Shown here piece by piece: positions 5,393 through 8,970 of a stretch of DNA of 27,516 bases. Below the pieces are notes generated by a model. It had not been told where the DNA came from, did not search any database, and was given only the letters and a program-made list of their open reading frames with translations. Within the stretch, counting starts at the first letter, position 1. The number at the start of each line of letters is the position of its first letter. The position numbers and the translations under genes are program-made. The stretch covers positions 1 to 27,516 of the IMG/VR virus record IMGVR_UViG_3300023179_000424. One strand, 5' to 3'. Source of the stretch: a virus.

Positions 5393-5758
5393 TTAATGCG
5401 TAAGTAAAATCTTTTTGGGCTTTTTGTGTTCAGGAACTTTACATTCCAAAACTATTGACAACAATCCATTTTTTACTGTGGCTGTTTTTACTTCCATATC
5501 TTCTCGTAGTGTAAATCGTCTCATAAAAGACGTGCTTGATATGCCCTTATGAAGATACTTTCGCTCGTCAGGAGTCTTAGTCGCAGAGATTTTAAGACTG
5601 TTACTGACGAGTTCTATGTCAATCTCGCTCTCAGAGAAACCCGCAACATTTAGTTCCAATGTAAGCTCGTTTTCCTCACTTTTGACCAAGTTATACTCCA
5701 TCGAGTCAAAACTTGTAGTGTTGTAAAACTCTGGGAAAAAGGTGTGTAAAAAAGTCAT
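5393..5758 (-). CDS. hsp20: Small heat shock protein Hsp20
   Basis: 121 aa, alpha-crystallin-domain chaperone that holds unfolding proteins without ATP. The domain spans roughly residues 20-115: an early strand pair (ELTLELNVAGFSESEIDIEL), SLKISATK, a loop with HKGISSTSFMRRFTL and the terminal signature KNGLLSIVLECKVPE, equivalent to the G-x-L family motif. A short basic tail (KKPKKILLTH) follows. Hsp20 genes are common in T4-like marine phages, where a role in virion assembly or host stress has been proposed. Here it appears to be the only protein of a separate transcript with a long structured leader containing a hammerhead ribozyme. It has a strong RBS, AGGAGGA, next to a hairpin. Confidence 0.95.
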   Translation of the reverse strand: MTFLHTFFPEFYNTTSFDSMEYNLVKSEENELTLELNVAGFSESEIDIELVSNSLKISATKTPDERKYLHKGISSTSFMRRFTLREDMEVKTATVKNGLLSIVLECKVPEHKKPKKILLTH

Positions 5759-5791: not shown

Positions 5792-5851
5792 AAGAATTAT
5801 AATCACTATGTTGTATGATTTCAAGAGCTAGAGGAGAATTATTTTGATAAA

Positions 5852-5936
5852 CTGCACGACAGGGTAGACAGGGAAGCAACCATACGGAAGCCTATGATCT
5901 ACCACTGTTTCGCCCTTCTGGGCTCGTCAGGTGCAG
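5852..5936 (-). ncRNA. Type I hammerhead ribozyme in hsp20 leader
   Basis: Every element of the hammerhead core is present in order on the minus strand. Stem I 5' strand CTGCAC (5936-5931); core CTGACGA (5930-5924); stem II GCCC-AGAA-GGGC (5923-5912), a perfect 4-bp stem; core GAA (5911-5909). Stem III is 5908-5898 paired with 5868-5859, ten pairs with one bulged T and starting with the required A-T pair, closed by a loop of about 29 nt. The cleavage triplet GTC ends at 5858, and stem I 3' strand GTGCAG (5857-5852) pairs perfectly with the first strand. Stem I is open-ended, so this is type I. Predicted cleavage lies between 5858 and 5857, leaving about 100 nt of leader on the hsp20 mRNA. Confidence 0.93.
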
Positions 5937-6080
5937 AAGCGCCATAGCTCATTTTCCAATTTTGCGCTCTAATGAGCGTCTTATACAACTCACAGCCAGA
6001 ATCCTAAGTCTTCCAAAGATAGAATCTGTTTTATGCGCTACCAGTTTCATGTTAGTCGAAATAGGGCTGTTGCTATGAGA
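5937..6080 (-). ncRNA. Unrecognised structured RNA domain upstream of the hammerhead
   Basis: No start codon with a usable frame is seen, but complementary segments nest well on the minus strand. CATAG near 6075 pairs with CTATG near 5945 to close the domain. ACAGCC near 6070 pairs with GGCTGT near 5993 around about 67 nt. GCTCATT near 5978 pairs with AATGAGC near 5949, with CGCTC-ATTA-GAGCG as a competing hairpin. Together these make a plausible three-way junction. The start of the domain contains TTTCGACTAACATG, similar to the tmRNA 5' segment TTTCGACTTAATG, but no tag frame, T-arm or CCA end is present. Ribozyme cleavage would leave this domain at the 3' end of a separate RNA of roughly 220 nt. 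Confidence 0.55.
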
Positions 6081-6082
6081 CT

Positions 6083-6114
6083 ACTATATATAAAAACCAT
6101 CCTCTGTTCTACAA
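6083..6114 (-). promoter_or_regulatory. Promoter block of the hammerhead/hsp20 transcript
   Basis: Minus strand TTGTAG (6114-6109), 16 bases, TATATA, continuing as TATAGT. The block TTTTTATATATAGTAG is identical to the sequence in front of the tmRNA. It lies just past the stop of the 6120-6632 gene and before the structured leader. It could be read as sigma70-like or, less well, as a variant of the T4 late TATAAATA element. Confidence 0.6.
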
Positions 6115-7783: not shown

Positions 7784-7873
7784 GAGCTACTTACTTCCAA
7801 CTCTTGACATCGTTCTGCTACAGAGTCAGATTCGGAGCAGGAAACGATAAAAACACTCCCTAGCAAGTAGCTC
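7784..7873 (-). ncRNA. Structured 5' leader of the Cys-rich peptide gene
   Basis: Three nested perfect helices on the minus strand: P1 GAGCTACTT/AAGTAGCTC (7865-7873 with 7784-7792, 9 bp), P2 ATCGTT/AACGAT (7843-7848 with 7809-7814, 6 bp) and P3 CTGCT/AGCAG (7836-7840 with 7815-7819, 5 bp). P1 and P2 are separated by a 16-nt purine-rich internal loop on each side, the arrangement expected of a riboswitch or protein-binding leader. It ends about 15 nt before the ATG. I do not recognise a known riboswitch or ribozyme core. Confidence 0.65.
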
Positions 7874-8535: not shown

Positions 8536-8932
8536 TGGTGGACCTGATCGAGAGTCGCACTCGATGTCCATAACGTCTTTGCTATTCCGTGTACAACAAT
8601 ATTTTGAACTTTCTTGCTTTCCAGGCACTTAACCCCGTTGACATTCCGTTCAAACAACTCTCAGTCACAAGGGGCTGATCAATCAGCTTTCTCACCCAAG
8701 ATTAGGTTTTACCCTCACATAACGGATGGTTATCTGTGAGCACCGCTAGTTTGAATTACGCAATTTATAGAGTAACTAGCAGAACATCTATAAATCACGG
8801 CTTATGCAGCTAAGGCGTAAGCAGAGTCGTTAAAGTTTGCACTTAAACGTTAGTCCATTTATTACGATGCCAAGGACTATCATCGTGTTGTGGGAAATAG
8901 CTCCGAACATTAAGTCGAAACTACGCAGGCCC
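8536..8932 (-). ncRNA. ssrA: Transfer-messenger RNA (tmRNA)
   Basis: Complete tmRNA of 397 nt including an encoded CCA. The 5' end GGGCCTG pairs over 7 bp with CAGGTCC before ACCA, and the third pair is G-U, the alanine identity pair. TTTCGAC follows the acceptor strand. The tag frame (8840-8802) is GCA AAC TTT AAC GAC TCT GCT TAC GCC TTA GCT GCA TAA, giving ANFNDSAYALAA, with the ALAA end used by ClpXP. P2 is seen as GCTATTTCC (8901-8893) with GGAATAGC (8588-8581). After the tag come a hairpin ATTTATAGA/TCTATAAAT whose loop GCTAGTT pairs with AACTAGC downstream (pseudoknot), then CTCACA/TGTGAG and GCTGA-TTGA-TCAGC hairpins. The T-arm has loop TGCGACT and a 6-bp stem, slightly unusual. It rescues stalled ribosomes with SmpB and tags proteins for degradation. 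Confidence 0.96.
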
Positions 8933-8942
8933 TTATTTCTCT

Positions 8943-8970
8943 ACTATATATAAAAATGGAAAAAAATCAA
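8943..8970 (-). promoter_or_regulatory. Promoter of the tmRNA transcript
   Basis: Minus strand TTGATT (8970-8965), 16 bases, TATAGT (8948-8943), ten bases before the mature tmRNA 5' end. It contains TTTTTATATATAGTAG, identical to the block in front of the hammerhead/hsp20 leader. The short extra 5' sequence would be removed by RNase P. Confidence 0.65.

Follow-up and report, generated by a model that had tools for sequence, protein, structure and literature searches.

Hammerhead ribozymes have been described in prophages, where they flank single genes or small groups of genes and process long transcripts, and in the haloviruses HF1 and HF2 a hammerhead lies 13 nt upstream of a helicase gene (PMC3088659). 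In gut phages, tRNAs are associated with theta (HDV-like) ribozymes whose cut lies at the tRNA 3' end, and a role in tRNA maturation has been proposed for them (PMC10879173). The locus analysed here has in common with the type I hammerheads of bacteria and phages (PMC3088659) the core, the three helices, the type I topology and the phage setting. It differs from them in that the ribozyme has a constant place, at the 3' end of one conserved noncoding RNA (ncRNA), while the gene behind it varies, and in that this gene points the opposite way in all contigs but the one presented here. With the theta ribozymes (PMC10879173) it shares a self-cleavage site that marks the 3' end of a noncoding phage transcript; those ribozymes, however, belong to a different class, lie downstream of the cut and are removed from the tRNA, whereas the hammerhead would mostly stay on the ncRNA, in which ARAGORN found no tRNA. 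Compared with phage small RNAs that end in a terminator, a form in which a sister phage (contig L241) ends the same ncRNA, the cleavage end would carry a 2',3'-cyclic phosphate. In the literature searched, in which subscription journals are largely missing, neither the ncRNA itself nor any conserved phage ncRNA that ends in a hammerhead was found. Phage hammerheads are known; the new element is an RNA family that carries this familiar ribozyme at its 3' end.

The window, that is, the entire stretch of 27,516 nt under analysis, is the whole 27.5-kb IMG/VR record of a T4-like phage with genes for gp32, DNA ligase, ribonucleotide reductase and PhoH. On its minus strand lies a hammerhead of type I, so classified because its 5' and 3' ends lie in helix I, followed on the same strand by an hsp20 gene and preceded by a conserved structured region (Table 1). 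All core bases are present, together with the A15.1-U16.1 and G10.1-C11.1 pairs, and the minimum free energy (MFE) fold of 5936-5852 is exactly the hammerhead structure, whose helices keep a high predicted probability in long sequence context as well. The initial annotation had described a type I hammerhead with all core bases and three helices, on which sequence, folding and comparative evidence now agree, and its perfect stems I and II are indeed a helix I of 6 bp and a helix II of 4 bp.

Table 1. Coordinates of the features of the ncRNA-hammerhead unit and of the adjoining hsp20 gene in the window.
Feature	Position	Strand	Evidence or remark
TATATATAGTA box, probable ncRNA promoter	6082-6092	-	Kept at the start of the unit; putative promoter function
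ncRNA body, reaching from near the promoter box up to the hammerhead	5937-6081 (5' end approximate)	-	Alignment, covariation, covariance model matches in ten other contigs
Long irregular hairpin with internal UUCGAC/GGAAGA and apical loop GGUAGCGCAnnAAAC	5989-6079	-	Covariation, MFE fold
Small hairpin CGCUC-AUUA-GAGCG	5965-5978	-	MFE fold; sequence varies in the alignment
UAUGGCGC element immediately 5' of helix I	5939-5946	-	Invariant in the first eight sequences
Type I hammerhead ribozyme	5852-5936	-	Core and helices read directly, MFE fold, nine relatives with compensatory changes
Helix I, strands CUGCAC and GUGCAG	5936-5931 and 5857-5852	-	Read from sequence
Hammerhead core CUGACGA (positions 3-9)	5924-5930	-	Position 7 is C, A or U among relatives, as the consensus permits
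Helix II GCCC-AGAA-GGGC	5912-5923	-	MFE fold and pair counts; AUCU...AGAU in L254
Core GAA (positions 12-14)	5909-5911	-	Invariant in 10 of 10
Helix III ACAG...CUGU with extended inner hairpin	5859-5908	-	ACGG/CCGU in L209 and L254
Predicted cut	between 5858 (C17) and 5857	-	Putative cleavage site
Probable hsp20 promoter TTGAAA-17-TATAAT	5796-5824	-	Sigma70-like, downstream of the cut
hsp20 gene, ATG at 5758	5393-5758	-	PHROG 432, Pfam HSP20; neighbour, judged outside the system

A descriptor scan of the window for all hammerhead types returned 5936-5852 as its sole match, while a type I match of any kind occurred in 4 of 200 dinucleotide shuffles and a match whose helices measured 6/4/4 bp or more in a single shuffle of the 200. 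A chance origin is rejected; besides these shuffles, what decides the matter is that nine other contigs preserve the structure with compensatory changes. The search with Rfam hammerhead models, suggested as a check by the initial annotation, did lead to Hammerhead_3 (RF00008) as the best match for the window, but a weak one of 17.1 bits (E 0.61) against a gathering score of 48.5 bits, so that model matching alone would overlook this hammerhead. The relative L126 matched Hammerhead_HH9 (RF02275) best, over the whole model and with 31.7 bits (E 2.2e-4), which is below the gathering score of 52 bits, and the window copy was not matched by that family; for both reasons we regard the ribozyme as similar in shape to RF02275 and not as a curated member. 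Across the curated hammerhead families (RF00008, RF00163, RF02275 and others), neither the window nor L126 gave a match above the gathering score. The window sequence is confirmed as a genuine hammerhead, of which catalytic activity is predicted.

A strict hammerhead pattern search of IMG/VR returned seven other viral contigs, all with the ribozyme in the same genome place wherever the flanks could be read, and searches anchored on the ligase and gp59 genes added two more members, L209 and the distant L254. The hammerhead is present in the window and in these nine phage contigs, and the catalytic core bases are found in all nine relatives, including L254, in which helix II (AUCU/AGAU) and helix III differ and the full core is retained. 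Across the ten contigs (nine distinct sequences), 100% of the cells of the hammerhead helices are paired, and four pairs, at least one per helix, have changed on both sides, a value reached by none of 500 shuffles. The A15.1-U16.1 pair is A-U in all ten, and G is absent from position 17, which holds C, A or U. Helix I has six perfect pairs and loop II is variable across the set (AGAA, UUUA, UGAA and others). Folded alone, all ten sequences gave the hammerhead helices with small deviations at the helix ends; in long context, the predicted probability of helix I was moderate or low for some relatives. The inner part of helix III (5859-5908 and its counterparts) consists of at least four unrelated sequences on a fixed core, as if the hairpin had been exchanged. 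In the IMG/VR contigs L081-L199, hammerheads are common and type III dominates in the sample, and several of these contigs carry one type I and one type III hammerhead about 0.3-2.3 kb apart.

Alignment of the relatives revealed that about 180 nt upstream of the hammerhead are also conserved; the structured RNA takes up roughly 140 nt upstream of the ribozyme. A pattern made separately from this upstream region alone retrieved the same seven IMG/VR contigs as the hammerhead pattern, and with L209 and L254, which add two contigs carrying both elements, ncRNA and hammerhead occur together in ten phages; an eleventh, L241, has the ncRNA alone. In the irregular hairpin of about 90 nt, compared in ten sequences, 14 of 25 pairs have changed on both sides, and its covariation score of 0.397, against 0.200 in shuffles, was reached in none of 500. 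Hardly any variation is seen in the apical loop GGUAGCGCAnnAAAC, which L254 lacks, or in the internal UUCRAC/GGAAGA, and the element next to helix I is retained in L209 and takes the form UAUGGCAC in L241. This conserved UAUGGCGC is a candidate participant in a tertiary contact of loop II with the helix I region. A candidate pseudoknot between the loop GUAGCGCA and UAUGGCGC comprises at most four invariant pairs, with no covariation and one mismatch in L241. An antisense target of the conserved loop (TGCGCTACC), sought in the window and its relatives, was present only in the ncRNA itself.

The covariance model (CM) of the family matched as a single copy per contig, found no further members over 80 hsp20 loci, and over gp59-anchored loci added only L254, while a final relaxed ncRNA pattern returned only L241 and L254. 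No match was obtained in a DNA search of named phages, nor with the exact ncRNA pattern in GTDB genomes, and the ncRNA bodies of the window, L126, L209, L241, L254 and L134 had no credible match in Rfam. Judged by its alignment, the upstream ncRNA is a previously undescribed, predicted structured RNA family of T4-like phages that is absent from Rfam.

The function of the hammerhead is suggested by the phage that lacks it. The ncRNA of L241 was detected independently by nhmmer (E 8.4e-6) before it joined the model; its CM match is stronger (E 9.8e-13), but L241 was then part of the alignment from which the model was built. Its neighbourhood is the same, with hsp20, gp33-like and gp59-like genes. 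L241 has no hammerhead, and after UAUGGCAC it continues with a long hairpin and then TTTTTT, a terminator that a simple scan missed because the stem has bulges. The same ncRNA is hammerhead-ended in one lineage and terminator-ended in its sister, which would make the ribozyme an exchangeable maker of the 3' end. The terminator form is one case, known from a single 4.3-kb contig, and it is the main argument for the hammerhead as the putative 3'-end maker. We consider it likely that the locus encodes an independent phage ncRNA of late type that would owe its 3' end to hammerhead self-cleavage in place of a terminator.

At the start of the ncRNA, L134, L241 and L254 carry TATAAATA, the T4 late-promoter sequence, and the window box TATATATAGTA departs from it. 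Alternatively, the hammerhead could serve the upstream operon by trimming its mRNA at the 3' end, with the conserved structure acting as a 3' UTR stabiliser. In the window that operon consists of a nucleotidyltransferase gene and a gene for a small secreted protein, and the unit starts 30 nt after the same-strand upstream gene and could for that reason be the 3' UTR of the operon; in several relatives, too, such a gene ends shortly before the ncRNA box. In L209, however, the block of opposing gene, hammerhead and ncRNA (L209:3467-4620) is inverted relative to the ligase and the upstream genes, and the unit adjoins the divergent ligase gene with no same-strand gene upstream; since none feeds the ncRNA, this copy needs its own promoter. 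The gene upstream of the ncRNA is a different one in L241 and L254, and a promoter-like box is retained at the start of the unit, all of which makes a 3' UTR unlikely. Judged from these arrangements, ncRNA and hammerhead form a unit independent of the neighbouring genes.

Two other structured RNAs lie on the same strand of the window. A tmRNA at 8536-8932 (-), detected with Rfam (E 7.8e-28) and uncalled by ARAGORN, recurs in most of the relatives that carry the ncRNA unit. In the window the same 16 nt, TTTTTATATATAGTAG, stand before the tmRNA (at 8942-8952, -) and before the ncRNA (at 6082-6092, -); a late promoter common to both was considered and rejected, as the relatives' tmRNA genes lack the identical box and their promoters look sigma70-like. 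The second, a CyVA-1 RNA (RF02965) at 7791-7866 (-), here in a phage, scores above the gathering score and has a partial, weak match in L126.

The initial annotation had placed the hammerhead in the leader of the hsp20 mRNA, with a cut about 100 nt before the ATG at 5758. The distance is correct, and in the window hsp20 is the next same-strand gene downstream, 94 nt from the ribozyme, so that cleavage 99 nt before the ATG might alter the life of an hsp20 mRNA; read-through RNA from the ncRNA promoter would hold both. This adjacency is seen in the window only, and the hsp20 gene has a probable, near-consensus promoter of its own after the cut, of a pattern (TTGAAA-17-TATAAT) with one occurrence in the window where 0.13 would be expected; mRNA started at this promoter would lack the hammerhead because the promoter lies downstream of the cut. 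A TTGAAA box also stands 58-71 nt before hsp20 in L241, L254 and L202; for L202 no -10 was recognised. The gene that follows the hammerhead in the nine relatives is encoded on the opposite strand in every case, is unrelated to hsp20 and differs between contigs. Two relatives (L195/L202 and L254) have both hsp20 and the hammerhead, with the opposing gene in between, and neither L202 nor L254 has the ribozyme on the same strand directly before hsp20. None of 80 other viral hsp20 loci has the ncRNA or a convincing hammerhead. Processing of an hsp20 leader is accordingly very unlikely, and the leader assignment has to be given up; of the effects that had been offered for cleavage, the freeing of the upstream RNA domain is the one favoured by the evidence, and an action on the hsp20 leader is not supported.

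In all nine relatives 0-12 nt separate helix I from the stop codon of the opposing gene, too little for a terminator to fit in before that gene. The opposing genes of L083, L095, L111, L175, L201, L202 and L209 are diverse, and several look PD-(D/E)XK-like by eye; Pfam and PDB sequence searches gave no confirmation of a PD-(D/E)XK nuclease identity. Relatives of the opposing genes of L201 and L134 occupy a variable slot near the cyanophage primase-helicase gene, one being annotated as the type-2 restriction enzyme CviJI. A homing element made of the ncRNA and an opposing nuclease-like gene was rejected, given that the cyanophage relatives of two opposing genes have no hammerhead; for that reason, and because the genes differ between contigs, we treat the opposing gene as a variable neighbour.

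The position of the highly conserved structured domain, with its invariant apical loop directly 5' of helix I, would also fit a natural aptazyme, in which cleavage by the hammerhead is turned on or off when the upstream domain binds a ligand or protein; allosteric hammerheads made in the laboratory exist (discussed in PMC3088659). A ligand, a protein or the infection stage would then gate cleavage, and the phage would toggle between free ncRNA and read-through transcript. L241, however, has the upstream domain without a hammerhead, L254 has the hammerhead without the invariant apical loop, and the helices of the window copy are predicted to be highly probable in long context, so that a switch of this kind is highly improbable. 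That the hammerhead is an inactive relic or a ribozyme-like structural stem, as its scores under the Rfam cut-offs and a cleavage predicted from sequence might suggest, is scarcely credible in view of catalytic positions that are invariant in ten divergent contigs, of helices II and III and a loop II that vary with compensatory changes, and of a position 17 that avoids G.

Formation of the ncRNA 3' end by the hammerhead, the reading we favour, would proceed as follows. The minus-strand ncRNA gene would start just after the late-promoter-like box at 6092-6082, a putative promoter, and its RNA would fold into the long irregular hairpin and the small hairpin, followed by the type I hammerhead at the end. 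RNA polymerase would read through the unit, and the hammerhead would fold and cut the growing transcript in the cell after C5858. This would release an ncRNA of about 220 nt that carries nearly the whole ribozyme and a 2',3'-cyclic phosphate end, and would leave the read-through RNA as a separate 5'-OH fragment. The cut would do the 3'-end forming that is done by an intrinsic terminator in the sister lineage, and it would separate the ncRNA from read-through RNA that in the relatives would be antisense to the gene packed against the ribozyme from the other side. Since a type I ribozyme lies almost wholly 5' of its cut, the ncRNA may keep the folded hammerhead as a stable 3' end. A benefit of the hammerhead end for stability or against antisense RNA is inferred from this scheme, whereas the comparison of contigs directly supports the structured ncRNA and the hammerhead, shows that the two are linked and that the unit is independent, and reveals a terminator in the hammerhead's place in L241.

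The relatives described here give a direct hint as to what natural hammerheads may do in the genomes of phages and bacteria, and the ncRNA would be a new covariation-supported family.
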